Shown here piece after piece: positions 8,154 through 37,810 of a stretch of DNA of 64,000 nucleotides. Position 1 is the stretch's first letter. The number at the start of each line of letters is the position of its first letter. The notes beneath the pieces were generated by a model. It searched no databases. It was not told the DNA's origin and saw only the letters and a list, made by a program, of their open reading frames with translations. This DNA is from a virus: the IMG/VR virus record IMGVR_UViG_3300049893_002454, positions 61,546 through 125,545 of that record; one strand, given 5' to 3'. The translations under genes and the position numbers were made by a program.

Positions 8154-8906
8154 ATGGATCTCAAAGAATTATTAAATTTAATCTCCGAAGTGGCAGACAC
8201 TCATGGAATCAGAGCTCCTCACATCGTTGGAGGTATTCCCCGAGATATCTATATGGGCTTACTCGAGGACTTAAATGACATCGATCTGACTAATGGAGAT
8301 AGCAGCATTTCTCGTTTGGCCGATCTGATAGGGGAGCGATTAGGAGTATCGCCTGCAACTCTTGCAGATGGACATAAAAAGATTAGATATGGTAGATTCT
8401 CTATAGATTTTTCTACAAATCAGATATACGATAATATTGACCAGTTGCTTATTGCTAGAGGTATGACTGTCGCAAACGATATGGTACGAGAAACCTTCTC
8501 GCGTGATTTTACAATAAATACCCTAATGGTGCCTTTAGATTTCTCTAAGATAGTCGACCTTACATCTATGGGAAAGTATGATATAGATCATAAAGTAATT
8601 AGGTGTCCTGTTGATCCACTTACTGCCATGACCTCGTCACCAAATCGTATAATTAGAGCATTTTATTATGCCGCTAGATATCGTATGTCAATAGATGACG
8701 ACCTTAAGAAAGTTATAAAAACAAACCTTCATCTATTAGAGCAGGTAAAGGAGAAATACTCCTCTGATAAGTTGGCGGCTGCTATAAAGCATGATGCTAA
8801 TATACTCAATGATCTTATTGAGTTGGGCGTGCTACAGAAGATTAAATTAACCAAGGAGATGACTGAGCAGCTTATTCAAAAGCGCCGTTTGGTCGATATA
8901 TTATGA
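8154..8906 (+). CDS. Nucleotidyltransferase with CCA/poly(A) polymerase head domain
   Basis: The 250-residue protein carries the head-domain signature of CCA-adding enzymes and bacterial poly(A) polymerases. GG-x-P-RD (VGGIPRD, about residues 24-30) is followed by NDIDLT (about 40-45), whose DxD would hold the catalytic metals. A later RETFSRDFTINTLM (about 116-129) matches the conserved segment of this family. Such enzymes add nucleotides to RNA 3' ends. It is shorter than full CCA-adding enzymes, with only part of the RNA-binding body. Its place inside a packaging operon is odd. It overlaps the next gene by four bases. Activity is likely; the RNA substrate is unknown. Confidence 0.8.
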   Translation: MDLKELLNLISEVADTHGIRAPHIVGGIPRDIYMGLLEDLNDIDLTNGDSSISRLADLIGERLGVSPATLADGHKKIRYGRFSIDFSTNQIYDNIDQLLIARGMTVANDMVRETFSRDFTINTLMVPLDFSKIVDLTSMGKYDIDHKVIRCPVDPLTAMTSSPNRIIRAFYYAARYRMSIDDDLKKVIKTNLHLLEQVKEKYSSDKLAAAIKHDANILNDLIELGVLQKIKLTKEMTEQLIQKRRLVDIL

Positions 8907-11473: not shown

Positions 11474-13336
11474 GTGGCAGTGTCAGCAAATAACGAGATT
11501 ACTCTAAAACTCTTTAATAAGATCAAGAGCGAAATTTCCGTTCTTGATCCAGTTTCTTTTGCAGAAAATAATCTCACTGTAGATGGAAAACCTTTTCGTA
11601 TGAGCGGAACCGGTTGGAAATTTATGGCCGATTTGTATCGTGAGGTAGCCGCACAAGCGTCGAATAAAAATGCCAAGCCAATGGTAATTTTGAAGGGAAG
11701 GCAGATAGGCGCCACTATACTTGCAGCTGTTTTATCATTATATTTTACTGCTTCAGGGCTATACGGCACTGGCCCGGATAGACCTCCTATGCGAGTATTG
11801 CATGTTTTTCCTACGCTAGGATTAATGTCTAAATATGCCAAAGACAAATTAGGCCCAATGGTTGCTGGATCTCAAGGTGGCTATATTAGCAGTCGATTGC
11901 TGAAAAATGATCCAAATGCAGTTAAAGTAGCTGGTACTGATGAGGCTATCGCAGAAAAGACCTTTTATGGGTATAACAAGCTTCGTATAGACGCCACTGG
12001 TGCTGATGGGGACCGTATCCGTGGTCTTTCGCAAGACGTTATCTTCATAGATGAGGCTCAGGATGTCAGTAAAAAGGCCATCGAAACTGCTGGTCCGATC
12101 CTAACATCATCACAGTATGGAGCCCCGACCAAAGGTATACAGTTATATTTTGGGACTCCTAAAGGTACTGGCTCGCACTTCTATAACATATGGCAGAAGT
12201 CAGATCAGCGATTTTATCAACTAAAGTGTGTCGGATGTAATCACTTCTTTTTCCTATACACTATGGGCAGTGACTCATGGAAGCAAGTTTGGGTATCAGG
12301 GCATGATGTACGTTGTCCGGAGTGTGGCACATTACAGAAGAAAGCCGATGCTATTGAAGGTGGCAGATGGGTTCCTACAAAGCTAGGTGATACGCAATAT
12401 ATTGGATACCATGTAAGTGTACTGCTGCATCCATGGTTTACTAAAGAAAATATTTTAGACTTAGATCCTGCAGTCAATCCAGATCGGCGAGAGGTGGCTT
12501 GGAGAAATGAGACTCTTGGTGAGTTCTATAGCGGCGGCGGCCTCACTATATCAGTAGATGATATTCGTGAAAACTGTTTTGATACCACCAGAGGCTTAGC
12601 CAAGACAATTCTTGACCGTGGTGATAAAACTATTGTTATGGGAGTTGACTGGGGCGGCAAGGATTTGGTTGGTCCGGGTGGCGATGAGGATGATATTTCT
12701 GTAGATAGCAAATCAGATGCCGGACAATCATATACAGCAGTAGTTATTATGAGTGTAGATAAGAGCGGTGTCTTTACAATCGAAAATGCATATAGATTAA
12801 AGCGCAATGATTTTGAATATAAGGTAAATATTATTTCAGAAATGTATCGCATATTCAAGGTGCAGAATGGGGCAGCTGATATAGGGTACGGTCAGGATAT
12901 AGTACAACATATGCAGGGTCCTATGGGATTTGGGGAGCGATTCCTAGGCTGCATCAATAGCGGCACAATCAATAGTACTATATCATATAAACCAAAAGAG
13001 CTGCGTGTAGTCCTTAATAAAGATGCTTTAATAGAAGAAGTGTTCTCTATGGTGCGCAAGGGTAAAATTAGATTTCCTGTGCACGGTGAGTCCTATGATC
13101 GGATCGATTGGCTTATACAGCATTTTACCTCTATGGAGGTAAAGAAGGTTATCAAAAATGATAATGTATATAATAGATATGTGAAGGGTGCCGTACAGAA
13201 TGACGGTCTAATGGCTACAATATATGCCCTTATTGCATATAAATTCCTAGCTACCAGTGGCTTTAAGGGAAGTGATTCTAAAGTCAAGGGAAAGGGCGCA
13301 CCCAGACCAATTCTCGCGTATTTGCCTAAAATATAG
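11474..13336 (+). CDS. terL: Large terminase subunit (ATPase and nuclease)
   Basis: The 620-residue protein is the DNA packaging motor and head-full nuclease. Walker A is LKGRQIGAT (residues 73-81), Walker B is DVIFIDEAQ (188-196) and the coupling motif is FGTPKGTGS (226-234). A zinc ribbon with CxxC pairs at Cys252/255 and Cys281/284 is inserted between the ATPase and nuclease parts. The RNase H-like nuclease shows Asp392 in VMGVDWGG, Asp469 in AADIGYG, and a C-terminal acid in QNDGLMA. Start is GTG at 11474 after AGGAGG; GTG at 11480 is an alternative. It lies directly upstream of the portal, the usual order. Confidence 0.95.
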   Translation: MAVSANNEITLKLFNKIKSEISVLDPVSFAENNLTVDGKPFRMSGTGWKFMADLYREVAAQASNKNAKPMVILKGRQIGATILAAVLSLYFTASGLYGTGPDRPPMRVLHVFPTLGLMSKYAKDKLGPMVAGSQGGYISSRLLKNDPNAVKVAGTDEAIAEKTFYGYNKLRIDATGADGDRIRGLSQDVIFIDEAQDVSKKAIETAGPILTSSQYGAPTKGIQLYFGTPKGTGSHFYNIWQKSDQRFYQLKCVGCNHFFFLYTMGSDSWKQVWVSGHDVRCPECGTLQKKADAIEGGRWVPTKLGDTQYIGYHVSVLLHPWFTKENILDLDPAVNPDRREVAWRNETLGEFYSGGGLTISVDDIRENCFDTTRGLAKTILDRGDKTIVMGVDWGGKDLVGPGGDEDDISVDSKSDAGQSYTAVVIMSVDKSGVFTIENAYRLKRNDFEYKVNIISEMYRIFKVQNGAADIGYGQDIVQHMQGPMGFGERFLGCINSGTINSTISYKPKELRVVLNKDALIEEVFSMVRKGKIRFPVHGESYDRIDWLIQHFTSMEVKKVIKNDNVYNRYVKGAVQNDGLMATIYALIAYKFLATSGFKGSDSKVKGKGAPRPILAYLPKI

Positions 13337-13349
13337 GAGTAGATTTATA

Positions 13350-15230
13350 ATGAAGAAAGATTACCACGATCAAATAAGCAGAGCTGAAGAGCAGGCTAAG
13401 AGATGGTCCGTTCCAGACTCTAGACAAAATGTTCTAGATCAAATGTATTACAATCAAGTGCAACGCCAATTAGGTATTCCTACTGATAGAATGCCTAAAA
13501 CTTTTTTGCAAAAAAATGCTATTGCATCTACTGGATTAAATTCACTGAGTAGTGAACGTAGAGAATATTTACAGGAATTAAATGATCGTGCAGAGGAGCA
13601 TCCCAGACCAAATCTTGCATTAGCTGCTGGAATACGCAAGAATGCATCAGTTAGTACTGGCGGGCTCGGCGGAACGCCAAATACTTCACATATAGGTCCA
13701 GAGCCATTTTCGCCACTGTTTCTTACACAAAATATGCAATTACCGAGAGATCGTATTACGATGAATGCGTGGAATAGAGCATATTTTGAAACAAATCCTA
13801 TTGTAAGAAATGCTATAACGCTACATGCAACATATCCAATATCAAAGCTACAGATCAGATGTGATGATAAGAATGTAGAAAAGTTCTTTTTTGATATGTG
13901 CGATAGAATCGATTTAGAGAATGTGGTCCAGCAAGCTGCGATGGAATTCTGGAAGCTAGGAGAATGTTTCGTGTATGCGTCATTTGATGAGTCCACTAGA
14001 TCATGGGATCAGCTATATCTTCACAATCCAGACTATATTCAAGTTGATGCTTCTCCGCTATCACCAAAAAATACAGTTATTCTATTAAGACCGGATGATG
14101 CATTGAGAAAGATCGTCTCCTCGGCCGACAGTCAATATGCGCGTCTGCGAGAGCAGCTCGACCCACGTATTGTTAATCATGTAATTAGAAATGAGATGAT
14201 TCCACTAGATTCATTTAATATTAGTCACCTAAAGATGCTAAACTCTCCATATGACTTGCGCGGAACATCTATTATCGTAAGCATATGGAAAGATCTTATG
14301 TTGTATGATAAGTATCGCGAGTGTAAATTTATTCAAGCCGACAGCATGGTGAATCCTCTTACATTAGTAAAGCTTGGCACTGATGGGGCGGAAGGATTTT
14401 ACCCCAGACAAGAAGAGATTGATAATTGGCGTTCTATTATGGAACAAGCTCAGTTTGATCGAGATTTTAAAATTATAACTCATGGTTCTGTAGCTATAGA
14501 GCGGGTTGGTTCTGCAGGGCATACTCTCGATACTGCGGCCGATATCAATCAGATTATGGACAATCTTTATACCGGACTGCAAGTACCAAAGTCTCTCTTA
14601 ACTCAAGAAGGTGCATCATATGCTACTGCCTCTGTAGCACTTGATGTGATGAGGCAGAGATATAATAGTTTTAGAACTATGATCTCAAATTGGTTAGAGC
14701 GAAAAATCTTTGCGCCAATATCTGAGGCGCAGGGTTTTTATGATATCGTCGGACAAGAAAAGCGACTAATCATACCTAAAGTTGAATGGAATCACATGAC
14801 GCTCTATGATCTCGATAATTACATAGCGCATCTGGCAACTCTTGTAGAAAAGAACCGTGTATCAGTAAGAACACTAGATCGCAGCCTGGGACTTAGCCGA
14901 AAAAACGAATTGGCAAACATTCGCCAAGAAATGATTGAAGCAGCAATCGTAGCTAAGGAACAAGAGAATTTGTCAAAGATGACATTGTCTCAGCTTAAGA
15001 GCTTAAACCCAACTGAGCCTATACCGGAACCAACAGATAATGGTTCCGGCGGGGCCGGCGGAATGATGGGAGGCCTACCGGGCGTGCCACCACCGTTACC
15101 GGGAGGGGATATGGGCTCACTTGGCCCTCCACCTATTGGTGGTATGGACTTAAATGCTCCGGCCCCAGCACCAATCGAACCTCCAGGAGGCATGCCTGGA
15201 GCCCCAACTCCGCCTGGACCATCAATGTGA
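13350..15230 (+). CDS. Portal protein
   Basis: This 626-residue protein is the dodecameric head gate through which terminase pumps DNA. Evidence is its place right after terL, its size, and a portal-like sequence: FETNPIVRNAITLHATYP (about residues 148-165), YIQVD in the clip/wing region and a long helical C-terminal half with AHLATLVEKNRVSVRTLDRSLG. The last 80 residues are very rich in Pro and Gly. I chose the ATG at 13350 with GGAG nine bases upstream, because an upstream start would lie inside terL. No catalytic motif is expected in this family. Confidence 0.85.
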   Translation: MKKDYHDQISRAEEQAKRWSVPDSRQNVLDQMYYNQVQRQLGIPTDRMPKTFLQKNAIASTGLNSLSSERREYLQELNDRAEEHPRPNLALAAGIRKNASVSTGGLGGTPNTSHIGPEPFSPLFLTQNMQLPRDRITMNAWNRAYFETNPIVRNAITLHATYPISKLQIRCDDKNVEKFFFDMCDRIDLENVVQQAAMEFWKLGECFVYASFDESTRSWDQLYLHNPDYIQVDASPLSPKNTVILLRPDDALRKIVSSADSQYARLREQLDPRIVNHVIRNEMIPLDSFNISHLKMLNSPYDLRGTSIIVSIWKDLMLYDKYRECKFIQADSMVNPLTLVKLGTDGAEGFYPRQEEIDNWRSIMEQAQFDRDFKIITHGSVAIERVGSAGHTLDTAADINQIMDNLYTGLQVPKSLLTQEGASYATASVALDVMRQRYNSFRTMISNWLERKIFAPISEAQGFYDIVGQEKRLIIPKVEWNHMTLYDLDNYIAHLATLVEKNRVSVRTLDRSLGLSRKNELANIRQEMIEAAIVAKEQENLSKMTLSQLKSLNPTEPIPEPTDNGSGGAGGMMGGLPGVPPPLPGGDMGSLGPPPIGGMDLNAPAPAPIEPPGGMPGAPTPPGPSM

Positions 15231-15233
15231 TGT

Positions 15234-15572
15234 ATGAGAATACCTAATGATATACGCAATATTTCATTTAAGACATATCACGGTATAGGCAATGCTCTAG
15301 ATTTTATTTGGCATACTTGTTGTGGCCGTCATGGCGATATTAAGCAGGCGGGTAAATATATAGATATTCTCTCCGGGTGGCGTCTAACTATTAATAAAAT
15401 GCGTATATATAGCTCACCCGAATTATCTCTCGCTGAGAGATTAAATTATAGTAGAGCTTGCAAAGATATAGATTCATTATTATTTAGGCTGAGCAGAATA
15501 TCCGGTGCTCTACCGAAAAAGGTGACCGATGCTATTGAGTCGACGAGCGCAGATCCAGATCAAGGGGATTGA
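15234..15572 (+). CDS. Hypothetical basic protein, 112 aa
   Basis: This small protein is basic and contains a Cys pair followed by an HGD segment (WHTCCGRHGDI, about residues 23-33). The C-terminal half is helical. It begins three bases after the portal stop and overlaps the topoisomerase gene by 44 bases, so it is probably translated. I do not recognise a family. A DNA-handling role alongside the portal and topoisomerase is possible but unsupported. Confidence 0.5.
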   Translation: MRIPNDIRNISFKTYHGIGNALDFIWHTCCGRHGDIKQAGKYIDILSGWRLTINKMRIYSSPELSLAERLNYSRACKDIDSLLFRLSRISGALPKKVTDAIESTSADPDQGD

Positions 15573-16851
15573 AGTATATAGTGCATCTTCTATATATGTG
15601 TTAGCAAAGCGCAAGTATGAAAAGAACTATACTAAGAAGATAAAGACTGATTCTGGCGAAGTGCGTATATATGATGACGCTCATATAGCAAAGCGATGGG
15701 AGAAGAAGGTAGGGCAAATCAGTGCCCTCAAAAAGAATTTACCAAAGCTACAGCATAAGTATCGTGCAGATCTCAAGTCAGATGATCTTAAAATTCGTAC
15801 TATAGCAGCAATAGTAGCTATCTTAGATCTTACTGCAATGCGCATAGGGAATGACGGCTCAGTTGAAGATTTTGGGACATTTGGAGCCACTACTCTCAAA
15901 AAGAAGCATATAAAGATCAGTGGTAATACTGTTAAGTTCAATTTTCTAGGAAAGAAGAAGGTAGATCAGACATTTTCATTTACTGATGCTGGCGTTGCTA
16001 AAGTATTGAAGGAATTATTGAAGGGCAAATCCAACAATGATTTCGTTTTTGAATATGAAGATGGAAAGCGTATCCGCGCCAAAGTAGTTAATCGTTATCT
16101 GGCCGCTTTCAATATCACAGCTAAAGACCTTAGAGGCTTTCACGCTAATCAACTAATGCGCGATGAATTAAAGCATACTAAAGATTTCGAAAAAGCTCTA
16201 GAGCAAGTGTCAGATAGGGTGGGTCACGAGCCAAAGACGTTAATGAACCAATATCTAGATCCTGCATTAGTTAAGCGGTATAAAAAGGCTGCGCTTAGCC
16301 TTGCCGATTATATAAATTCAGAACTTTCAAGTATACTACAGAAACAGCCAAAATCAATGGCTCCATTATCGACAAAACCTAAGTCTAGTGCTCCAGGCAA
16401 GTCGACTCCATTACGTCCAGGAGAGCAGCTGGCAGGTGGGCAGAAGATTACTTCACCATATGGTATGCGCACTCATCCGCGCACAAAGAAAAGGGTTCAT
16501 CATGACGGCGTAGATCTACGCGCAGCAAAGAACACTGAAATCTTAGCTTATGATGATGGCATAGCTGTATTCGCCGGTAGAGGTAATGCTTATAGTGGAA
16601 ATATGGTGACTATTTTACATGGTCCGGATCAAAGGCTTGCAACTAAGTATCTTCATTTGAATAAAGTTCTGGTGTCTCCGGGAGCAAGTGTAAGCAAAGG
16701 TCAGGTTATAGGTCTTGCTGGTTCCACTGGTAGAGTTACGGGAGCGCACCTTCATTTTGTTATGGAATATGATTCGCAGGTCATAGACCCAACCCCATAC
16801 TTAAAAGATCGTACTGTAGTAGGAGCAATGCATGCCAGGGAAGCTGTCTAA
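15529..16851 (+). CDS. Topoisomerase IB fused to M23 peptidase
   Basis: Residues about 10-265 form a type IB topoisomerase core. Arg105 sits in TAMRIGN, followed by FGTFGATTLKKKH. The other expected catalytic residues are a Lys in GKKK (142-144), Arg202 in DLRGFH, His233 in VGHEP and the nucleophile Tyr242 in NQYLDP. After a Pro/Ser/Lys linker (273-297), residues about 305-425 are a lysostaphin-type M23 metallopeptidase with His325 and Asp329 in HDGVD, and HLH at 407-409. The first enzyme relaxes DNA by nicking and rejoining; the second cuts peptidoglycan cross-bridges. No signal peptide is visible. Position among virion genes suggests a packaged, injected protein. The start has AAGGTG upstream. 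Confidence 0.9.
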   Translation: MLLSRRAQIQIKGIEVYSASSIYVLAKRKYEKNYTKKIKTDSGEVRIYDDAHIAKRWEKKVGQISALKKNLPKLQHKYRADLKSDDLKIRTIAAIVAILDLTAMRIGNDGSVEDFGTFGATTLKKKHIKISGNTVKFNFLGKKKVDQTFSFTDAGVAKVLKELLKGKSNNDFVFEYEDGKRIRAKVVNRYLAAFNITAKDLRGFHANQLMRDELKHTKDFEKALEQVSDRVGHEPKTLMNQYLDPALVKRYKKAALSLADYINSELSSILQKQPKSMAPLSTKPKSSAPGKSTPLRPGEQLAGGQKITSPYGMRTHPRTKKRVHHDGVDLRAAKNTEILAYDDGIAVFAGRGNAYSGNMVTILHGPDQRLATKYLHLNKVLVSPGASVSKGQVIGLAGSTGRVTGAHLHFVMEYDSQVIDPTPYLKDRTVVGAMHAREAV

Positions 16852-17077
16852 GACCGATGAAAAGAAATGGCGTAAAGCCAAGCACATTGTACGTAAACAG
16901 AAGGGTTCTAAGCAATCTAAATTCACTGATCGCGACTGGGGTCTAGTTACTCACATATTTAAGAAACAGAAGAAAGCCGCAATAGTAGATGCGCTGTATG
17001 TAATTGCAACAGCATTTGATGCTATAGATGATACCCTGTCAGCAAATTGTATTGATGATATTTTGGAGAATATATGA
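16832..17077 (+). CDS. Small basic protein with helical-hairpin C-terminus, 81 aa
   Basis: The first half is strongly basic (GKLSKTDEKKWRKAKHIVRK, then KQSKFTDRDWGLVTHIFKKQ) and could bind DNA. The second half, residues about 51-81, has the pattern ALYVIATAFDAIDDTLSANC followed by IDDIL, a variant of the helical hairpin seen in several other proteins here. It overlaps both neighbours by short stretches, so it is in a coupled operon between the topoisomerase-peptidase and the giant coiled-coil protein. I know of similar short proteins in phage head gene clusters, but no defined function. Confidence 0.6.
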   Translation: MPGKLSKTDEKKWRKAKHIVRKQKGSKQSKFTDRDWGLVTHIFKKQKKAAIVDALYVIATAFDAIDDTLSANCIDDILENI

Positions 17078-20000
17078 AATATAGCAGCATTGTTAGTGAC
17101 CTGATCCGACGATTCTCATCCCTAGATATTATAATAGAGCCAGAAGAGAGTGCTGTACGCGAAGCTGTGAATAAGCTAATTGGATCAAATCCAAAGTATT
17201 TCGAAGGCGTTAAGAAAGTTGTCGTAGAGCATGACGTTCCACATTCTCCATATTTAGGAAAGTCTACTGGAGAGGGTATTATCTATATTTCATTAGATGC
17301 GATAAGAAATCAGCTCAAATCTCAAGGCGAAGAGCACAATCAGCAGGCTTTTATTCATGAACTGGTTAAGACTCTTGGACATGAGGTGGCTCATATCCGT
17401 GGCGGCATGGAGCACACTGAAGGGCCATCGGAAGTCGAAGAGCAAGTCTTAGAACAGAAGTTTCCAATGCCAGCATTAAAACGAGAGGCTGCTGACTTAA
17501 CAGACAAGCAGAGGAGAGCTATAGTACTGCAGAAAGAGATCGCTGCACTACAGGGGCAATTAAACCAGATTCAGACGGTATGGAAGCAACTTACTAAGCC
17601 AGGTATCAAGGTAGACCCCGCGCGCGAAGTTCATTTTAAAGCAGAACAGGATAGAATTAATAATGAAATAACTGCCAGGCGCTCAGAAATAGAATCTCTT
17701 GAAAAATTGGAACAAGCAGTTACCAAAGAAACGATATCTGATGAGAAGGCGGCTCCTAAATCACCAGCAGTTACAAATGTTAATGATCTGGCTAGATATG
17801 GCCCGCTATTTAAAGATTTAGCTGCATCACTAGGCAGCGCATTATCTGGTCTAGTAAAGCTATATCAGCTCTTAAATGGAGCTCCGGATTTCGTCAAAGG
17901 AGAGGGTAAGATTTTACCAAGGATGAAAGAAGTAATCTCTTCCACGGACGCTTTATATAAAAAGATGTCATCGCGTATACAGGCTCATACGGATGCACCT
18001 CATCTTCTTAAAGAATTAGCATTGGAAATATTATTTGAAGAAACTAGCGAATCGCTACTTGATACTGGTGATTTCCTAACATCAGAACAGGATTTTATTA
18101 CACCGCTGACGAATCAAGGAGTGGAATCAGATTTTTATAAAAATGCCATTGCTCCTTTAGTTAATGAAATACTAGCATCAATAACTAGAGCTGCTGCAGT
18201 TGTTGGTTCAGAGCATAAATCAATTCTTCAGATTCCAGAGTTGTCTACTTCCAAGTTGCCATCGGCACAAAAGAATATAGGTAAACCTCAGCGAGAGACA
18301 AAATCTCACGGCGAGCGCACGCTCTCTACAATACGAGAAGATTATCTTAATGAATTTAGTGGATTGACTGATAAATTAGAGGGGGCTCGGCGCCTTTGGA
18401 AGAATACTGCGGACCAGTCAAAATTAGCCCCGCTTTTAACAAGGAAGGACCAGCTTGAGGCTGAGTTGCAAATAGCTAAGCAAGAGTTGTCCGATGCATT
18501 TGCTGATGTAACCGCGCTTAGTGGCACTCCACGAACAAAGGAGCAGGCGGCAAAACAAAGAGCCTCTAGCGAACGATATCAGATGGCGAAGAGACGCGTA
18601 AAAGATGCTGAGGATGAACTCAGCGCACTAAAGACCAAGATATCATCTCTATATGACACTAGCGCTGTAAATGCAGATGACCTAATTGCTGCTATAGCGC
18701 CTTATTCTAACGTTGCTAGCGTAGAGGCAAGACTAAAGACTGTTTCTGAAAAACTAGAGCAGTTTAAGCTACTTGATGAATATAAGCGCCAACTTACCGA
18801 GCGACGCGAAGAACTGCTATCAAAGTCCAAGGAATTAGGCGAGGGCAATCCAGATGTCAAAGCACTGACTGCTCTTGTTGAAGTTAGCCTCCCTAAACAG
18901 ATAGCTGAGATAGAGGGTGACTTGGGAGCATCTTCTTCCCCAAAATCACGTGAAAAAGATCCTAATGAAAAACGTATAAGGGATGATATTAAGGCGAATA
19001 CTAAATTACTTAATTCACCATTGGTACGATCTATTTTTGATAAGCTTATGCCAGATATGGCTAGTGGCGGAGATCTTCGTACACAAAAGAAAAATCTTGA
19101 GAGAAAAATCAAGGTTCGTACACAAGATGTTGCTCCTGAAACTGATTATGATGAGCTGAAGGGAGTATTACCAGCCGATGTAGAAATTTCTACATGGCAG
19201 TCCCAGATAGCAGATGTCGATAGGGATATTAAATACAGAAAGCGTACTGAGATAATAGACTATATTGGTCGTTTAGGTCAGGCATTGTCTGCAATTGTTC
19301 AGCGAGCTGCTGGTAAATCCGATGTGGCTATTCCTACAGATATATTAGGCAAGTCATTACGCCTCGGCAAATACATTGGTGCTGATGGCAATGCTAAGAT
19401 TATCAGAGACTTAGAAAGCGTCGTAAACGCAAATATGAAGGCTGTTGGACCTATAGAGGCAGAATTAGGTAAGTTGCGCGATGAACTTGCTAATATCAAA
19501 CGCTCACCAAAAAAAGACGAAGTTAAAGCTGAGCGACTAAAGGCTAAGTATAAGTACCTTTCTGAGCAACCGGCTTTCAAGAAACTTAGATCAGATATCT
19601 CTTCGACAATAGAGAGACTAGTACAACATACTAGTCCAATTGTCACAGAGGAGGTATCTCAGCCAAAGATAGTTACTGAGAGAGAGGATGCTCCTGATAT
19701 TTCTGATAAACTACGTCGCAGGCGCGAAAAAGAGGAGCGGAATATCGCTAAGGAGTTTGGTTGGAAAACTGAGCTGCCTTCTCAGGAAGAATCAACTAAA
19801 TTTCCCGAATACGACGAGCGATCTAAGGCTGTTTCTAGACAATGGGAAGCACCGGAGCCGCTGGGCAAGTCTACACTAACAAATGCTATAAAGCAGGATA
19901 TAGAACGAGGTTTGATCGATCCGACAAAAATTCCTTCAGATGTACGCAAGCAGTTGTTAACTCAACTTCACGCCACCTCGGGAGAGTTGCGTTCAATAAA

Positions 20001-21921
20001 AGAACGCCTCGTAACTCCAGATGCAGAGTTGGCAGATTTACAAAAAGAGGAAGCTGCGTTTAGGCTAGATACTTCGGTTGATCCTGATTTTAATAATAAG
20101 CGTATTGAACAAAATATGGCCAAGCAGGAGTCTCTACGGCGTTCGTCCGCTAAACTACGAGAGCAGGCTAAGCGGCTTCATGCTGAGATTAGCAAAATTC
20201 GTGATGTATTGAAGGATCCAGAAAAATATGTACGTGGCACAGGCGAATTAGAAAAAGATTTGGAGAAGCAACTAGAGCGACAAGAAGCCAGGCTGTTGCA
20301 TCAGTATAAACTAGAAGATAGTATTAAAAAGCTTAGAGATGATCTCCTATATGCAGACCCATTGCAGCTTAAGAATATCCAGAAAACTATTGCTATCCAA
20401 GAAGCTGAACTTAAATCCGTAATTAAGGAGATTGCAGAGGCAGATGCCAGCATTGACAGGACTACGCGCCAATTAAGTTCCGCCCGCAAAAAACATAGCA
20501 CTGAAAGTGATAAGCCTTCGCCTATTAAGGAGAAGAGTGTACGTGTCTATGAGCCTACCGAGGAAGAGCGTGCTGCTGCTAAGCTACACAGACAGAGGTA
20601 TGAAGCTGCTGTTGATAAATCTGTGGAAGAAAAGGCCAAGCGATATCGCGCTGCAGATGAGGCGGAGAGAAGGACGATAGCTGAGCGGCGCAAATTCGTT
20701 GATCCTAATAAACCGGAGAAGCAACTTCCGTCTACGCGTATGCTTAATGCCGCACGGGCTATGCGCTATGCCTACAAGAAGGCCTTGGAGTTGAATCCTA
20801 AGGCAGCAACTTCGCGTGAAAGCAAAGTCAGAGATGCTCTCTACCGCCAAACTGAGCTAGATAATTATCTTCGCGTGCTAGACGACGAGTATTTAAAACA
20901 GGCTACTGAGCGTGCTTTATCAGAAACAAGTGATATTCAAGAGCAATTTAAATTACGTACAAAATACTTAGATGAGTTGCATAAAGCGCCAGAATATACA
21001 CAGGGCCTTGAAATGTTGCAGCAGGCAATGAATGATCTGGATAATGCTTCGATTATAGATCGTCCGGAGGGAACTGCTGCTCTGGAGTCAGTTGTTGAGC
21101 CACGCGATATGGGTAAAGGTGTCGGGAGAGTGCGTGGAAAGCCGGAGCGTATGTTAGGTGCGAAGGATCCGTACATGTTATTCTTCCGTGCTCAATATGA
21201 GGCCGAAATAGCTTTAATGCGCTATGAAGAAGCAGCTAAGGCCAAGAAGCACTTGGATAAGGTGGCAGCTAAGGCTAGAAAGGATGCTTCTGATGCGGGG
21301 TTGGACGAAAAGCAGATTAATGAGACTGTGGACAGGGAGTACAATGAAATGTTGGGCGGCATTATGGCAGCACAATATGAATCACTCTCTAAATTTGATA
21401 ATATTGTTGATAAATTAAAGGAAAGCACTCAAGGTAAAAAACCAACTGTATTTTTTGATCCTACCAAAGTAGAATCATATCTAAAGGACCTTGCAGACAA
21501 GCAGGCTGCTGCTGTTCATGAAAAGGAATTAGCAAGACGTTTTATTCAGGTACGGGAAATACCATTGCTTACGGCAGGGACATTCGACCCGGATCGCTAT
21601 CCGAAATTACTTGCTGCTGAATTTAGCGATGAGATGCCTCCAATGTCAGAACTGGCACGCCAACAACGTGGTGGCGAAGGGGTATACAAGAAGTTGCGAT
21701 ATGTCCTGCCACATCTATTGTGGGGACAAACTACACCAGGAAAGAAGGGCAAAAAGGGTGAAGGGGCAGCTGATGTACCTGCCGAAGTTGCGGGATTGCA
21801 AGAATCGCCATTTACTGAAGCTGTAAAGAAGCGCTATACGCCAGCCCCAATCAGACCAGGTGGTAAAGGTCAGCGTGGACAAAATGTACCTCAATTCATG
21901 CAATCAAAGAGTCGGAGCTAA
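17074..21921 (+). CDS. Giant coiled-coil protein with N-terminal HEXXH motif
   Basis: This 1615-residue protein has two parts. The N-terminal 130 residues contain HEVAH at 103-107, a zincin-type zinc site, followed by GGMEH and several Glu that could supply the third ligand. From about residue 140 to 1590 it is almost entirely charged helix with heptad-like Leu spacing, typical of long coiled coil. The last residues are Pro/Gly/Lys-rich. It could be an internal virion protein ejected with DNA, or a ruler-like scaffold with protease activity. I see no transmembrane segment, which argues against a classical tape measure. It starts by a four-base overlap with the upstream gene. Confidence 0.65.
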   Translation: MKYSSIVSDLIRRFSSLDIIIEPEESAVREAVNKLIGSNPKYFEGVKKVVVEHDVPHSPYLGKSTGEGIIYISLDAIRNQLKSQGEEHNQQAFIHELVKTLGHEVAHIRGGMEHTEGPSEVEEQVLEQKFPMPALKREAADLTDKQRRAIVLQKEIAALQGQLNQIQTVWKQLTKPGIKVDPAREVHFKAEQDRINNEITARRSEIESLEKLEQAVTKETISDEKAAPKSPAVTNVNDLARYGPLFKDLAASLGSALSGLVKLYQLLNGAPDFVKGEGKILPRMKEVISSTDALYKKMSSRIQAHTDAPHLLKELALEILFEETSESLLDTGDFLTSEQDFITPLTNQGVESDFYKNAIAPLVNEILASITRAAAVVGSEHKSILQIPELSTSKLPSAQKNIGKPQRETKSHGERTLSTIREDYLNEFSGLTDKLEGARRLWKNTADQSKLAPLLTRKDQLEAELQIAKQELSDAFADVTALSGTPRTKEQAAKQRASSERYQMAKRRVKDAEDELSALKTKISSLYDTSAVNADDLIAAIAPYSNVASVEARLKTVSEKLEQFKLLDEYKRQLTERREELLSKSKELGEGNPDVKALTALVEVSLPKQIAEIEGDLGASSSPKSREKDPNEKRIRDDIKANTKLLNSPLVRSIFDKLMPDMASGGDLRTQKKNLERKIKVRTQDVAPETDYDELKGVLPADVEISTWQSQIADVDRDIKYRKRTEIIDYIGRLGQALSAIVQRAAGKSDVAIPTDILGKSLRLGKYIGADGNAKIIRDLESVVNANMKAVGPIEAELGKLRDELANIKRSPKKDEVKAERLKAKYKYLSEQPAFKKLRSDISSTIERLVQHTSPIVTEEVSQPKIVTEREDAPDISDKLRRRREKEERNIAKEFGWKTELPSQEESTKFPEYDERSKAVSRQWEAPEPLGKSTLTNAIKQDIERGLIDPTKIPSDVRKQLLTQLHATSGELRSIKERLVTPDAELADLQKEEAAFRLDTSVDPDFNNKRIEQNMAKQESLRRSSAKLREQAKRLHAEISKIRDVLKDPEKYVRGTGELEKDLEKQLERQEARLLHQYKLEDSIKKLRDDLLYADPLQLKNIQKTIAIQEAELKSVIKEIAEADASIDRTTRQLSSARKKHSTESDKPSPIKEKSVRVYEPTEEERAAAKLHRQRYEAAVDKSVEEKAKRYRAADEAERRTIAERRKFVDPNKPEKQLPSTRMLNAARAMRYAYKKALELNPKAATSRESKVRDALYRQTELDNYLRVLDDEYLKQATERALSETSDIQEQFKLRTKYLDELHKAPEYTQGLEMLQQAMNDLDNASIIDRPEGTAALESVVEPRDMGKGVGRVRGKPERMLGAKDPYMLFFRAQYEAEIALMRYEEAAKAKKHLDKVAAKARKDASDAGLDEKQINETVDREYNEMLGGIMAAQYESLSKFDNIVDKLKESTQGKKPTVFFDPTKVESYLKDLADKQAAAVHEKELARRFIQVREIPLLTAGTFDPDRYPKLLAAEFSDEMPPMSELARQQRGGEGVYKKLRYVLPHLLWGQTTPGKKGKKGEGAADVPAEVAGLQESPFTEAVKKRYTPAPIRPGGKGQRGQNVPQFMQSKSRS

Positions 21922-23804: not shown

Positions 23805-23969
23805 ATGGGATTTATTAAATACTCTGTATTAGAATTAGGGGTCGAAGAGACCCTTCCAGGTTGGATTAAGCAGTCCAGTAAAGCAGAATCTGAAGTGAAG
23901 GACGATGACCTCGAGACTGCTAATAAAAGTTTAGATGATGATAGTGAAGAAAATCAAACCAAGGAATAG
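23805..23969 (+). CDS. Small acidic protein, 54 aa
   Basis: An ATG seven bases after the upstream stop, with AGGTG in front, opens a 54-residue frame. The N-terminus is MGFIKYSVLELGVEETLPGW and the rest is acidic (Asp/Glu/Ser-rich). It runs to one base before the GTG that opens the next frame and two before its ATG. The tight fit supports translation. I do not recognise it. An acidic tail of this kind would suit a small partner of the basic scaffold region encoded next. Confidence 0.5.
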   Translation: MGFIKYSVLELGVEETLPGWIKQSSKAESEVKDDDLETANKSLDDDSEENQTKE

Positions 23970-23971
23970 TG

Positions 23972-26900
23972 ATGGCTATTAAAAAGATTGCGTTTAGTGA
24001 TCAACTACATATATCAAATATAGTTTCTTCAGATGTTGTAGAGGCAGAAGCCGATATTGTAAACCGATTTAAGGAAATTGTTGCGTCCTTGCGAGATGAG
24101 CAAGAGCGTATCAAGGTCGGTACCAAGATTGCACCTAAAGTAGAAGACTTTATCTACTGTCATGCTATACAGATGCATGCTGCTGAAGCAAATCTTGTTG
24201 GTGAGGACAGCGGTGAGTTTAGGAAGAATTCCCGTGGTGAGCCAGTACGAGGACATTTTGAATCAGTAAAGGATGGGCGTGGTTCAGATTCGGTAAAGTG
24301 GGTTAGTCCGGATGGAATCCAGCTCTATAAGAATGCTAATGGCGATATTTTCCCAGAAGAAGATCTTATTAAATCGCATAAAGAATGGGTAGGTAAGCCT
24401 CTATGCAAAGATCATATAAGCAGCAGCGTAGATGGAATTCGCGGTATTATAGTTGATACTTTTTATGATAACCGCTTCAAACGTGTCCATGCATTATTTG
24501 CTTTAGATAAGAAGAACTATCCTGAACTTGCTCGTAAAGTTGAAGCCAATTATGCAGTTAATGTCTCGATGGGCACAGCAGTAGGCAGATCTATTTGTAC
24601 CGAATGTGCAAATGTAGCGACCACAGAGTCTGAATATTGTCATCATGTCAAATCAAAATCTAATTATGGTGAAATAAATAAGGATCTCAAGCCCATAGAG
24701 CTTAGCTTAGTGGTTGTGGGTGCTGACCCGCGTGCGAAAGTGCGTACTGTACTAGCTAGCTTTAATAATTATTTTATGCAAAAGGCGGCGGCTCTTGCTG
24801 ATTCTTTAGAAGAAAGCGTAGAACCGACATCAATATCAAAAAATCTTAGTGTATCCGAAGTTATAGATTTACTTGGAGCACTGAACCAAGAAAGTGAAAA
24901 ATATGCCGAGGTCATGCGTCATATTTCCACTATGAAAAATCATGAGCTGCGGGAGCTCGTGCTTAAATTGAAGTCAATGAAAGATCCTACATTAACAACT
25001 GTCAAAGATACTATTGGAGAGTTGTTAGCTGAACGATACATGGCTTCTCCCCCTCCCGCGCTTGATATTAATAATGCAGGACGCCCAACAGGTACGGCCA
25101 CTCAGCCTGATTTAGGATCTGCAGCAGCAACCGGACATGACTTAGCCGGGACAAGCTTAAATACTGAGATAGGTGAGGATCCTATTTCTATGGTAGATAA
25201 GGTCGTAGGAGTTTCACGAACTCTTCCAGATCCTAATAGTGGTATAGCAACGGCATCGGCTATTTTATCAAATTTTACTGATAGTTCTGACACCGATGTC
25301 AATAACAATTCTTTGCACAATAGATTTGCAATGTTGCAGAAGAAGGAGATTCCAATGAATTTTGCAGAGTTACGTAAGCGTGCAGAAGCGCGCAAACAAG
25401 CGTATCACCAGGGCACAGAAGACCCAGCGAAGGCACTTCCGTACGATAAAATGGGTGACGCAGATAAGATCCGAGACACACAGGATAAACAGATGGTTGG
25501 TGATGAGCTTGATACCTCATCCGACATTCCCGCCGAAGATGCTAAGAAGAAGGATATTCTTCAGCGCGCTTCACTTGAAGAGCGTCGAGCTAAGCGAGCT
25601 AAGCTCCTTGAGGCACTTACCAAGCAGGCCGATTCAGCTAAGCCTGGCAATGTAGAGGAGAAGACTGACTCTCTCGGTCGTAAGGTTATGGTCGCCACTA
25701 AACCAGATGGCTCAAAAGAGGTATTGAAGGCTGATGATGAAGCCGGCACTGTTGAGAAGAAGGCTTTCTGGCAAGGAACAGAAGAGCCTACCCCTGGCAA
25801 GACCAGATATCCTCTGATGGGTGAATCACATGATAGCATGCGTGCCAAAGACAAGCAAATGAATGGCGTTGTCGAGACTGGTGCAGATGGCCTTTTCCCT
25901 GGAGATGAGCAGCTGAAGAAATCACTGCAACGCTCAGCGTCCATCAAGGCACGTCTTACAAAGAGCGCTACGCCAGGAAAGAGCACGTGGAAATTTTTTG
26001 CAGGTAATGATGAGATTCTTACTGTAAAGGCTTCTTCGGCATATGAAGTTGGCTTAGATGAGCCCGTACAAAATACAGCCCATCTCTCGCAAGACGGCAA
26101 TGACCTTGTAGCTGATGACTTTTTCAAAACTGATGTTTATGCAAAGGAAGTTATGAAGCTCATCCGTTCTGCTGGTCTTGAGAAAGCAGCAGAGACTTTA
26201 GGTGGTGAGTTACCTCCTCCGCCAGCTGCCCCGCAAGCAGCGCCAGCACCAGCAGTGCAGGAATCGCCTGCTGATGCTGCTGGGGAGCAGGAGAAAGATG
26301 CTAATGATAAGATCGTAGAGGCACTCGCCTCGATCGAATCCGCTGTTGAAGAAATTCGCAATGCAGCTAATATTGAGGATCTGAAGCAGGTAGATGTTTC
26401 ATCTGAAGGCGCTGCGGTTACAGCATCATTCCGTACTCAGCTATTTAAAGTACAGGCGGAGCTAGCATCGGCAGCTGACGAACTAGCTACTTTATCAGAA
26501 TCTGCTGTATCAAGCGCAATCGTTGACGAGGCTGTGTCTGACGCATTTACAGTTGCTACTGCAGCCGCCGATTTGCTAGATAAGTTTGCTGCAAAGAAAA
26601 AGAAGAAAAAAGATGATGTCAAGAAGATGAAGAAGGTAAAGAAGCTTTTTGATAATAAGAAGCTTAAGAAGAAGGATGAAGATGAGGATGAAGATGAGGA
26701 ATTGGAGAAGAGGGCAAGCGCTACACTTGCTGAGCTTCTGGCTGCCAGAGCAGCTCGTCGCGAGGCATTAGTAGCTAGAGCCGCTGATGACGGCAGTGAG
26801 TGGGAAGAGGTTACACGTCCAGAAATCCCATCATTACTAATGCAGCCTGATACTGAAGTTGATACCATTCCTGAACAAACAGAGGTTGATACTACTGCAT

Positions 26901-27805
26901 TAGACGATGGTCTCGATGCTGCCGAAGAGTTAAGTGAAGCCCTGGAGGCATGGGACGCTGAAGACGCTGCATTATCCGCTAAGGATAAGGGAGATGTTGA
27001 AGGTCCGCTTAGCAAAGAAGAGGAAGATGAAGTTGCTGAGATAGCCGACGAAGAGGTTGATGAGCACGAAAAGGAGATGCATGCTGATGATGGCCTCTTA
27101 GATCGCAAGGCCTGGAGAGCGTCTCTTCTAAAGAAGATTGCTGGCGAATGGCAGTCTACGTATTCAGAAGCTCGCAAAGGTGCCGGTCCAGAAGTTAGCG
27201 TTGATGCTAATGTATCAAATAAGCTTAACAAGGTCGAGACTCTGGCCGAGGTTAAGGATGCTATGGAAGATGTAGCTCGTTCTGAGCCGCGTAATGTACG
27301 CATGGCTGCTGAGACCCTTGATCGAATGATTCGTGCCGGGGCCGTTAAAGCAGCTCAACTCAATGAACTTGTTGCTAAGGGGGCTGTAGATGCTGAAGCC
27401 GCCAAATACTGGAAGGAGTATTTTGGTCAGACTGATGGTGGTAGCGAATTCGCTGCTGGCTTAACACAGGAATTCAAGCAGGCTAAGGCCAGCCTTGACG
27501 TTAAGGCATCAGTGGAAGAGCAAGAGGCTAAACTTATGCGCGCTTACAATCTTGCTCTTGAGGCTCAGGAACGCGGCCTTATCCCAAGGTCACGCACTGA
27601 ATTACATCGCTTTGCTTCTAATATGGTTAAGTTGCCAACTGAGCAATTTGAAGCAATGAAGAATATGATTGGCCAGGCACGCAAGGTAGATGAGCACGTT
27701 AAGACTGCCGCTCCGGTAGTTGGACTTAACTACGATCGTGCGCCAGCAGTAGCTCAACAGCCAGATGATATTTCAGTAGAGGGCTTGACTAAGCTCTTCT
27801 TCTGA
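23972..27805 (+). CDS. Prohead protease-scaffold fusion candidate
   Basis: This 1277-residue protein looks like a head maturation protease joined to a scaffold. Residues about 45-270 include KPLCKDHISSSVDGIRGIIV, then a beta-strand-rich part and VNVSMGTAVGRSICTEC with EYCHHVK; the His and the Ser in SMG would fit a Ser/His capsid protease, and the Cys/His cluster may bind zinc. From about 462 the protein is charged and helical, with a poly-Lys stretch then a poly-Asp/Glu stretch (about 870-910). Two repeats QGTExP...MG...DKQM.G lie near residues 479-510 and 599-632. Start ATG is at 23972; GTG at 23969 is possible. Confidence 0.6.
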   Translation: MAIKKIAFSDQLHISNIVSSDVVEAEADIVNRFKEIVASLRDEQERIKVGTKIAPKVEDFIYCHAIQMHAAEANLVGEDSGEFRKNSRGEPVRGHFESVKDGRGSDSVKWVSPDGIQLYKNANGDIFPEEDLIKSHKEWVGKPLCKDHISSSVDGIRGIIVDTFYDNRFKRVHALFALDKKNYPELARKVEANYAVNVSMGTAVGRSICTECANVATTESEYCHHVKSKSNYGEINKDLKPIELSLVVVGADPRAKVRTVLASFNNYFMQKAAALADSLEESVEPTSISKNLSVSEVIDLLGALNQESEKYAEVMRHISTMKNHELRELVLKLKSMKDPTLTTVKDTIGELLAERYMASPPPALDINNAGRPTGTATQPDLGSAAATGHDLAGTSLNTEIGEDPISMVDKVVGVSRTLPDPNSGIATASAILSNFTDSSDTDVNNNSLHNRFAMLQKKEIPMNFAELRKRAEARKQAYHQGTEDPAKALPYDKMGDADKIRDTQDKQMVGDELDTSSDIPAEDAKKKDILQRASLEERRAKRAKLLEALTKQADSAKPGNVEEKTDSLGRKVMVATKPDGSKEVLKADDEAGTVEKKAFWQGTEEPTPGKTRYPLMGESHDSMRAKDKQMNGVVETGADGLFPGDEQLKKSLQRSASIKARLTKSATPGKSTWKFFAGNDEILTVKASSAYEVGLDEPVQNTAHLSQDGNDLVADDFFKTDVYAKEVMKLIRSAGLEKAAETLGGELPPPPAAPQAAPAPAVQESPADAAGEQEKDANDKIVEALASIESAVEEIRNAANIEDLKQVDVSSEGAAVTASFRTQLFKVQAELASAADELATLSESAVSSAIVDEAVSDAFTVATAAADLLDKFAAKKKKKKDDVKKMKKVKKLFDNKKLKKKDEDEDEDEELEKRASATLAELLAARAARREALVARAADDGSEWEEVTRPEIPSLLMQPDTEVDTIPEQTEVDTTALDDGLDAAEELSEALEAWDAEDAALSAKDKGDVEGPLSKEEEDEVAEIADEEVDEHEKEMHADDGLLDRKAWRASLLKKIAGEWQSTYSEARKGAGPEVSVDANVSNKLNKVETLAEVKDAMEDVARSEPRNVRMAAETLDRMIRAGAVKAAQLNELVAKGAVDAEAAKYWKEYFGQTDGGSEFAAGLTQEFKQAKASLDVKASVEEQEAKLMRAYNLALEAQERGLIPRSRTELHRFASNMVKLPTEQFEAMKNMIGQARKVDEHVKTAAPVVGLNYDRAPAVAQQPDDISVEGLTKLFF
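25355..27805 (+). CDS. Possible nested scaffold from internal start
   Basis: Inside the protease-scaffold gene, an in-frame ATG at 25355 follows an AAGGAG (25343-25348) with six bases between. It would give an 816-residue protein beginning MNFAELRKRAEARKQAYHQG, exactly where the charged scaffold-like part begins. Phage lambda uses such a nested start to make scaffold Nu3 from gene C. Here the site and spacing are seen in sequence; use of the start is inference. Confidence 0.45.
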   Translation: MNFAELRKRAEARKQAYHQGTEDPAKALPYDKMGDADKIRDTQDKQMVGDELDTSSDIPAEDAKKKDILQRASLEERRAKRAKLLEALTKQADSAKPGNVEEKTDSLGRKVMVATKPDGSKEVLKADDEAGTVEKKAFWQGTEEPTPGKTRYPLMGESHDSMRAKDKQMNGVVETGADGLFPGDEQLKKSLQRSASIKARLTKSATPGKSTWKFFAGNDEILTVKASSAYEVGLDEPVQNTAHLSQDGNDLVADDFFKTDVYAKEVMKLIRSAGLEKAAETLGGELPPPPAAPQAAPAPAVQESPADAAGEQEKDANDKIVEALASIESAVEEIRNAANIEDLKQVDVSSEGAAVTASFRTQLFKVQAELASAADELATLSESAVSSAIVDEAVSDAFTVATAAADLLDKFAAKKKKKKDDVKKMKKVKKLFDNKKLKKKDEDEDEDEELEKRASATLAELLAARAARREALVARAADDGSEWEEVTRPEIPSLLMQPDTEVDTIPEQTEVDTTALDDGLDAAEELSEALEAWDAEDAALSAKDKGDVEGPLSKEEEDEVAEIADEEVDEHEKEMHADDGLLDRKAWRASLLKKIAGEWQSTYSEARKGAGPEVSVDANVSNKLNKVETLAEVKDAMEDVARSEPRNVRMAAETLDRMIRAGAVKAAQLNELVAKGAVDAEAAKYWKEYFGQTDGGSEFAAGLTQEFKQAKASLDVKASVEEQEAKLMRAYNLALEAQERGLIPRSRTELHRFASNMVKLPTEQFEAMKNMIGQARKVDEHVKTAAPVVGLNYDRAPAVAQQPDDISVEGLTKLFF

Positions 27806-35804: not shown

Positions 35805-37810
35805 ATGACTACAGGTCTTTTTAATGACAAGGGAGAGCTGAATGCTACATCAGTAGCCGATGCAGTCTCTAACCTTGCCAAGTATGCAAGTGTTATTCAA
35901 AATCATATGAGCTCAAATCAGTCTCTCGCCGGCCGCCCATCCCTCAATGAGCAGCAACGTGACGACATGGTTAAGCGCGCTCTTCAAACAACCGAAGGCA
36001 AGATTGCACTCGGCCAAGCCATGGCTTTGCCGATCCGACGCAACCTTGACTATCAAGGCGTTGCGAGAAAGGCTTTCGTCGTAGATCCTTTGCCAAACGG
36101 CGCCCTTGCCGTTTATGATCGCGACGTCGATGTGGCTGCAGTAGTTGTAGCCAGCAACGGTTCAGCTCCAGAATCACAAGTTCGTGGCGACCGCATAAAC
36201 GTTCCGGAATTTGAAATCGTTTCAAACCCGGTCGTTCGTATCCGTGAAGTCAAGATGCGTCGATTCAATGTGATCGACCGTGCTGTTCAAAAGGCACGCC
36301 AGGAGATCAACTGACCTTGGGTCTCCGTTAAATACCAGGTTATGCTGGAAATCCTCGAAGCTGTTTAGTACCGAATAATCGAGTAATAATCTAAACAGTA
36401 TGGGACAATCAGCAGGGGATAGTTAAATGAAAGTCGAAGATATCCTTTCTTATGAACAGCTTTATGAGCTCTATGTAGTAATTAAACTTTCTGATGCAGA
36501 AATTGCAGAGAAATTTGATTTAACAGTAGGGCAGGTTCACAGACTTAGAAATAAGTATTTGATTAAAGCTATTGAGCCATATGAACGCCATCCTAAGGCA
36601 AAATTAGATGATCAAGAGATTAGCCTAATTATAGGATTGCTTTTGGGCGACGGCCATATGCGTTTAAGAGAAGGCAGGAACACCTACCCGTCTCTTATTA
36701 TTGAGCAGTCAGCTAAGCATAGAGAATATTGCTTTTGGCTGTTTGAAGCACTTAAAGATTGGGTCCCGGATAGAAAAAGGTACCCGCGTCAGGCTCAGCA
36801 TAAGAATAAAGAAAAGATATATCACTCGTACACTTTTAGCACAGTTAGCCACCCAGCATTCTTTCAATTATATAATGCATTTTATAAGAATGGAAGAAAG
36901 ACCCTTGATATACAATATATAGCCAATCACTTTAATGTATTATCACTGGCTGTATGGTTGCAGGATGATGGCTCACTAACTGGAACTTGTAAAAGAAATA
37001 TTCTGTACACTAATTCATTTTCAAGAAGTGATATTAATGGCTTAAGGGATATTTTATTTGATAGGTTTGGGCTAAAAACTTGGATTTCTAAACGCACTAC
37101 AACTACCGAAATTAGTTATGAGATTGCGTTTGATAGAGAATCATCCAAGAAACTTTCAGACATGCTACGACACATCGTTGTACCAAGTATGTTGTACAAG
37201 CTAATCCCCTCAGAGACTACAAATGGTACTGCTACATAGTAGCAGAAGGTATAGTCCGACACTCCGAGCGATTGGAGATTAACAGAGCTGCCAAGCTCAA
37301 GAAGATGCTAACGCATTTGCTGCGCTGGATTTCGCAGCCGACGCCTCCCTTAGTGGTGAAAACACCGCTCAGGACATCGTCGATGGTGGTTTAACCCGTC
37401 GCGATCTCGTTGAGATCTCGACCCAGGTTGATCGCTGGGATCTGGCTACCTCGAAGTTCTTCATGAACATCTTCGAGTTTAACGATATGCGTCTGTGGTC
37501 CTCACAGAACGGCACTGGCGTTGCCGATGTAGATCCGGTTACCCACCGTGAAATCCTCCAAACCGGTCTTTATGGCCGTATCTTTGGAGCGGACATTATC
37601 GTCAGCAAGATGGTTACCCCAGGTACCGTATTTGCTTGCGCTGATGCCGAATTCGTCGGTGTTATGCCAGTACGACAGGACATCGAAATCCTCCCAGCGG
37701 ACGAACCAAAGCGTCTAATGTTAGGATGGGTGGTCTCGGAAATTATCGGCATAGGCGTTGCAAACCCACGCGGTGTTGCAGTAGGCCGTAAGAGCGTAAC
37801 TGTAGGCTGA
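35805..37810 (+). CDS. Major capsid protein, split by a group I intron
   Basis: The gene is join(35805..36307, 37291..37810). The spliced product is 340 residues and forms the icosahedral shell; an HK97 fold is expected. Exon 1 encodes residues 1-167 plus two bases of codon 168, and exon 2 the rest, so the junction reads QEI-QAQEDANAFAALDFAA. Without splicing the frame stops at 36314. Typical capsid features in exon 2 are TGLYGRIFGADIIVSKMVTP, EFVGVMPVRQDIEILPAD and a C-terminal NPRGVAVGRKSV. GGAG lies before the ATG. Codons are unusually C-rich. Fold assignment rests on position, size and sequence style. Confidence 0.85.
36308..37290 (+). ncRNA. Group I intron in the capsid gene
   Basis: The 983-nt self-splicing intron can be placed by pairing. 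P1: exon GGAGAT (36302-36307) pairs with GTCTCC (36321-36326), leaving the expected U-G wobble at the 5' splice site. P10: CTTGG (36316-36320) pairs with the first exon 2 bases CCAAG (37291-37295). The intron ends in G at 37290. Core elements include the helix CTGTTTAG/CTAAACAG (36361-36368 / 36391-36398), AATCAGCAGGGG near 36407-36418 and TATAGTCCGACAC near 37250, close to the usual P7 region. Splicing restores a continuous capsid frame. It hosts a LAGLIDADG gene. Confidence 0.92.
36427..37239 (+). CDS. LAGLIDADG homing endonuclease in the intron
   Basis: The 270-residue protein cuts intronless capsid alleles and so spreads the intron. Two LAGLIDADG motifs are visible: IIGLLLGDGHM (about residues 74-84) and LAVWLQDDGSL (about 176-186); each ends with the acidic residue that binds catalytic metal. 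The N-terminal 55 residues contain a helix-turn-helix (SDAEIAEKFDLTVGQVHRL). GGGG upstream of the ATG within the intron supports translation. It sits within the intron loop, before the conserved 3' core. The protein is full length and the motifs are intact, so the element may be active. Confidence 0.93.
   Translation: MKVEDILSYEQLYELYVVIKLSDAEIAEKFDLTVGQVHRLRNKYLIKAIEPYERHPKAKLDDQEISLIIGLLLGDGHMRLREGRNTYPSLIIEQSAKHREYCFWLFEALKDWVPDRKRYPRQAQHKNKEKIYHSYTFSTVSHPAFFQLYNAFYKNGRKTLDIQYIANHFNVLSLAVWLQDDGSLTGTCKRNILYTNSFSRSDINGLRDILFDRFGLKTWISKRTTTTEISYEIAFDRESSKKLSDMLRHIVVPSMLYKLIPSETTNGTAT

Follow-up and report, generated by a model that had tools for sequence, protein, structure and literature searches.

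A type IB topoisomerase-M23 peptidase fusion encoded among the head genes of a large bacterial virus, proposed as a packaged and co-ejected effector

The gene described here lies in a window of 64,000 nucleotides (the whole stretch of DNA that was analysed), which is part of a linear 125.5-kb IMG/VR contig from an uncultured large bacterial virus. Its open reading frame at 15529-16851 (plus strand) comprises 440 uninterrupted codons, as the original prediction had it, and joins a predicted type IB topoisomerase (TopIB) to a predicted M23 peptidase. The gene order around it is terminase, portal, 112-aa ORF, fusion, 81-aa ORF, 1615-aa ORF and head maturation protease. The terminase large subunit (11474-13336, plus strand) matches its PHROG at 3.2e-60 as well as PF05876, the portal gene (13257-15230, plus strand; its true start is probably near 13350) matches the PHROG portal family at 9.5e-48, and the head maturation protease, which carries a long C-terminal region (23969-27805, plus strand), matches its PHROG at 4.8e-10. 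The fusion had been described as lying beside the portal gene; the two do share this stretch of head genes, but they are not directly adjacent, for the 112-aa ORF (15234-15572, plus strand) intervenes and shares its last 44 bases with the fusion. Small ORFs occupy the corresponding interval between portal and TopIB in L011, L013 and LR745208, and portal orthologues were found near TopIB in L002, L011-L014, L016 and L018-L024. The order portal, small ORF, TopIB and, further on, head protease is also that of LR745208 (L002), a 485-kb phage whose TopIB carries a fused HAD domain. The 1615-aa gene (17074-21921, plus strand) has a zincin-like HExxH motif in its N-terminal part, a long stretch that is charged and repetitive and reads as coiled coil, and a weak match to a tape-measure PHROG (2.4e-07), and is a candidate for a further internal protein; the L013 ORF at this place has only 766 aa.

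Several other features of the window and of related contigs were recorded. A CCA-adding-type nucleotidyltransferase is encoded separately in the head cluster (8154-8906), with the same function as the PolyA_pol domain that is fused to TopIB in the related phages L039, L055 and L134. At 35805-37810 a LAGLIDADG endonuclease ORF stands between two ORFs that correspond to the beginning and the end of a single 291-aa LR745208 protein; a major head protein PHROG has matches in two proteins of the window contig, and this region is probably a head protein gene interrupted by an intervening sequence. A patatin-like phospholipase gene (51216-52031) follows downstream of the head cluster, and the end of the window is occupied by a very long ORF (60472-63999) that carries YadA head-type repeats. 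The contig also encodes a GroEL-type chaperonin, a DnaJ-like protein, DNA polymerase III alpha, IMP dehydrogenase and several sugar-nucleotide enzymes. Among the related contigs, the portals of L013 (6549-9689), L129 and L141 have an insertion of ~360 aa at a similar place, that of L013 reading like an intein, and in LR745208 a TnpB-like gene in opposite orientation is inserted between the terminase and portal genes (L002:7487-8770).

By Pfam profile, each half of the fusion matches the family that had been named for it, residues 58-281 scoring 102.8 bits (2.3e-29) with Topoisom_I (PF01028; cut-off 23.7) and residues 324-421 scoring 90.2 bits (9.8e-26) with Peptidase_M23 (PF01551; cut-off 28.7), and a sequence search of the PDB returned TopIBs for the first half and M23 enzymes for the second. 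From Pfam, alignments and structural matches we place the TopIB catalytic domain at residues 46-252 (15664-16284) and the M23 (LytM-like) peptidase domain at residues 303-430 (16435-16818). Between them is a linker (residues 253-302, 16285-16434), mostly of low confidence, which varies in length and is the fastest-evolving part of the protein, and ahead of them an N-terminal tail of low predicted confidence (residues 1-45, 15529-15663), all on the plus strand. The AlphaFold2 model (pLDDT 71.5) contains two folded domains separated by a low-confidence stretch at ~253-292. Its best PDB matches in Foldseek, all at a probability of 1.00, are TopIBs for one domain (3m4a at 1.8e-12, variola 2h7f at 1.4e-11 and 3igc, and 2f4q) and M23 enzymes for the other (3slu, 6ue4, 2b13 and LytM structures).

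The catalytic residues named at the outset are likewise in place. When the first half is aligned, through a profile built on 11 relatives, with the thaumarchaeal, variola, Deinococcus and human TopIBs, R105 (15841-15843), K142 (15952-15954), R202 (16132-16134), H233 (16225-16227) and Y242 (16252-16254) fall in the catalytic motifs of the variola enzyme and are invariant in all 11; the spacing of nine residues between His and Tyr is also common to the two proteins. When an N-terminal DNA-clamp or cap domain was sought, about 45-100 residues only were found ahead of the TopIB core, with a low-confidence N-terminal end. In the second half the zinc ligands of the HxxxD and HxH motifs, H325 (16501-16503), D329 (16513-16515), H407 (16747-16749) and H409 (16753-16755), are present, to which we add the catalytic histidine H376 (16654-16656). 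That the two halves are a type IB topoisomerase and an M23 peptidase is thus fully supported by profile and model, and both activities are predicted.

The original prediction called for a search for other proteins with both domains. An earlier single-protein scan yielded none, and an alignment-based scan of IMG/VR viral contigs found the same fusion on three further independent contigs, L011 (433 aa, 72% identity to the window fusion), L012 (410 aa, 54%) and L013 (452 aa, 51%). The five M23 residues and the TopIB catalytic residues are invariant in all four fusions, as is the peptide LAKRKYEK in the N-terminal tail, which aligns with an RVAARYxxKK segment standing ahead of TopIB in huge-phage relatives. 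Between the window and L011, pN and pS were 0.11 and 0.93 for TopIB and 0.24 and 0.72 for M23, and the linker had a pN of 0.39, above both domains; synonymous change is nearly saturated at this distance, and the pN/pS ratios are therefore rough and are taken as signs of constraint. As full-length orthologues occur on three other contigs with the residues all invariant, the fusion is real: an assembly artefact or frame fusion is ruled out by these orthologues, and chance or degenerate domains by the retention of all catalytic residues and by pN far below pS.

The four fusions group as one clade (support 100/98, present in 100% of bootstrap trees) in a maximum-likelihood tree built from 89 TopIB domains; their nearest neighbours there, L039, L055, L107, L119 and L134, are proteins of 480-2621 aa without M23. 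The TopIB-M23 fusion is therefore under purifying selection within a single clade and, as the four are monophyletic, a single gain of M23 suffices, which would make M23 a rare partner of TopIB. A custom M23 profile found M23 joined to TopIB in these four proteins only, among the matches listed. No such fusion was found in deposited phages or plasmids, where no single place covered 80% of the query, or in bacterial genome contigs, which were scanned with the fusion alignment as short peptide patterns that distant cases could escape.

The TopIB half has a far wider distribution. Scanning IMG/VR with a conserved TopIB motif listed at least 100 loci and, after removal of near-copies, 91 proteins among the matches listed, in addition to those of the window and of four reference phages. 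Among these matches the portal was in reach in 32 non-redundant loci, on the same strand as TopIB in 32 of 32. When the 41 non-redundant loci with at least 4 kb upstream were considered, 25 had a portal, 31 had at least one of portal, terminase and head protease, and 10 had no head gene in reach, again among the matches listed; the sample depends on the motif pattern and on the stored length of DNA, and these figures are not population frequencies. Exactly one TopIB was found in 23 of the 24 records searched whole, so that it does not duplicate a replication enzyme of this type.

Among the matches listed, lengths run from about 270-350 aa, for solo TopIBs, up to 3125 aa, and the fusion partners, attached on the N- as well as the C-terminal side, include HAD, CCA-polymerase, 2H phosphoesterase, RNA ligase, pyrophosphatase, GNAT and LPD1 domains. 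Pfam analysis of the 88 TopIB proteins without M23, most of which keep the catalytic pentad, returned PolyA_pol (12), 2'-5' RNA ligase/2H (10), PAP2 (5), DUF5661 (4), InPase (3), HAD_SAK (3), LPD1 (2), GNAT, RNA ligase, LigD_N and others. TopIB is thus a conserved portal-side component in a broad group of huge phages, exchanging its fusion partners, and this pattern suggests a kit of enzymes that may be injected with the viral DNA.

The longest of these ORFs (1300-3125 aa; L014, L016, L019, L024, L039, L055, L134 and others) are mostly beside the portal on huge-phage contigs, and their many other enzyme domains include RNA ligase, InPase, PolyA_pol, Acb1-like 2H, AAT and GNAT. In the long TopIB ORFs (L014-L146) an RVAxR[YWHF] motif occurs 102 times compared with 18 expected from shuffling; it sits at domain junctions and protein ends and may be a cleavage or targeting tag. 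As LR745208 carries the motif in proteins throughout its genome, beyond the head genes, we set it aside as proof of packaging.

We propose that the fusion is a compact effector of the polyvalent type, belonging to the head module, which would be packaged into the head and co-ejected with the genome, M23 cutting the wall and TopIB acting on DNA; we assign this reading a probability of roughly 0.6. Type IB topoisomerases require neither ATP nor a divalent metal, and such an enzyme would therefore suit action in a packed head or at entry. The protein would be made late in infection, packaged, possibly held in the head by contact of its TopIB domain with DNA, and would exit through the portal along with the DNA. 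At the entry site the M23 domain would then cut the peptide cross-links of the host wall, and the TopIB domain would take torsion out of the genome during its entry or just after it. The earlier picture of M23 opening the wall ahead of the DNA and TopIB easing supercoils behind it is plausible, and we infer packaging, ejection, both activities and their order. A point against the proposal is that the two domains would work in separate compartments, a demand that one polypeptide has to reconcile; the disordered linker could do so by its reach, or might be cut by the phage head protease. LAKRKYEK is the only conserved candidate for a packaging signal. That the protein may be carried in the head and ejected is supported by comparison, through the conserved head-gene location and the multidomain relatives of polyvalent type. 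Polyvalent proteins are encoded with the head genes of portal-terminase phages and also in conjugative elements, and they are thought to be packaged in the capsid and injected (Iyer et al. 2017, PMC5512222); it is on this precedent that the window protein is read as a small injected effector. For the larger group, we consider it an even bet that a large group of huge phages generally carry type IB topoisomerase in their virions, as the constant core of portal-side, head-packaged and injected multi-enzyme proteins that gain wall-cutting (M23), RNA-processing and anti-defence domains; the window protein would then be the form in which wall opening is combined with DNA untwisting.

An alternative that we judge unlikely is that TopIB serves during packaging, in the procapsid or at the portal, where it would relieve the torsion produced by the terminase motor, with M23 as a passenger destined for the next infection. 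TopIB adjoins terminase or portal in most loci (it is only 15-36 bases from the terminase gene in L021, L036 and L133), it stays constant while its partners vary and it needs no ATP, all of which would fit such a role; it leaves unexplained why M23, or enzymes directed at defence and RNA, should be fused to TopIB, and these partners favour action after ejection.

Quite improbable, in our view, is a protein that stays out of the head and acts as a late endolysin, its TopIB half working on DNA as infection draws to a close. Among the M23 PHROGs several are endolysins, and M23 is the only peptidoglycan hydrolase of the window contig among the families tested, none being found for SLT, phage lysozyme, Amidase_2, M15_3, NlpC/P60 or VanY on this possibly incomplete contig. 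Against such a role are the head-gene location, the retention of this TopIB, in an unchanged position, by relatives without M23, and the closest relative, whose contig encodes a separate VanY peptidase, a candidate endolysin, more than 90 kb upstream of the fusion. As the equivalent of that stretch would fall outside the window contig, a separate endolysin is likely in the window phage. No endolysin with a topoisomerase is known to us.

The interchange of partners on both sides of a constant TopIB could also mean that TopIB is a DNA-binding carrier, anchoring the fused enzyme onto packaged DNA with relaxation being secondary. We give this little credence, since a domain that did no more than bind DNA could dispense with the catalytic pentad, whereas the pentad, Y242 included, is kept across the relatives as described above. 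Finally, that the first half is a tyrosine recombinase is barely credible, as, for all the shared superfamily, the weak PF00589 match reaches 20.2 bits, below its cut-off of 27.1 and far from the PF01028 score, while the solved relatives by sequence and fold are TopIBs and the His-Tyr spacing is that of the variola enzyme.

The co-ejected effector proposed here bears on two open questions, namely how very long phage genomes enter free of torsion and what phage heads carry besides DNA. A conserved portal-side topoisomerase with swapped fused enzymes offers a direct genetic handle on both entry torsion and head cargo, and DNA topology would join the functions that injected phage proteins may control. 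With its 440 residues and two domains the window protein is a simple model, in which wall opening and DNA relaxation are separable by single active-site mutations. The fusion had been put forward as previously not known, and neither the open-licence PMC papers nor the databases searched hold a report of it; nor do the open-licence PMC papers report TopIB in polyvalent proteins or as the constant part of portal-side phage proteins. Both domains and injected multi-enzyme proteins are already known, and what appears to be new is the fusion and the constant portal-side TopIB, the general pattern being the larger point.

Compared with known enzymes, the window TopIB has the catalytic core fold and R-K-R-H-Y pentad of the poxvirus, Deinococcus, eukaryotic and thaumarchaeal TopIBs, with the histidine of the pox and eukaryote type at a position that is Asn in the aligned Deinococcus sequence; unlike all of these it is joined to a cell-wall peptidase and encoded in a phage head gene cluster. 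A 2021 jumbo-phage survey mentions a TopIB in a few phages, such as Lu11 and PaBG (PMC7824862). The solo TopIBs of Lu11, PaBG, RSL1 and Motura and of Xanthomonas and Rhizobium phages share the phage TopIB core, but they are distant from that of the window, with long branches in the tree, and in the stretches fetched no portal or terminase is annotated beside them. The M23 domain resembles those of virion-internal and tail proteins, such as tape measures and the pre-ejectosome internal protein of cyanophage A4 (PDB 9k2v, a match to the M23 half), in its fold and presumed cutting of the wall at entry; none of those found has a topoisomerase.

The closest parallel is with the polyvalent proteins. 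T4, P1 and phiKZ are cited as carriers of internal proteins that enter with the DNA. Polyvalent lysozyme and DD-peptidase domains have been proposed to breach peptidoglycan at entry (PMC5512222). The text of that paper does not mention TopIB, the sole match to 'topoisomerase' being a reference title, and does not name M23. The TopIB relatives carry the polyvalent-network domains LPD1, InPase, 2H and GNAT, and the window fusion, for which LPD, InPase, 2H, MPTase and GNAT were considered, has none; it also differs from polyvalent proteins in being small, with two domains only. Like them, it joins two biochemically unrelated domains in one chain, is encoded with the head genes of a portal-terminase phage, and includes a domain predicted to cut peptidoglycan, a kind that is present in the known polyvalent set.
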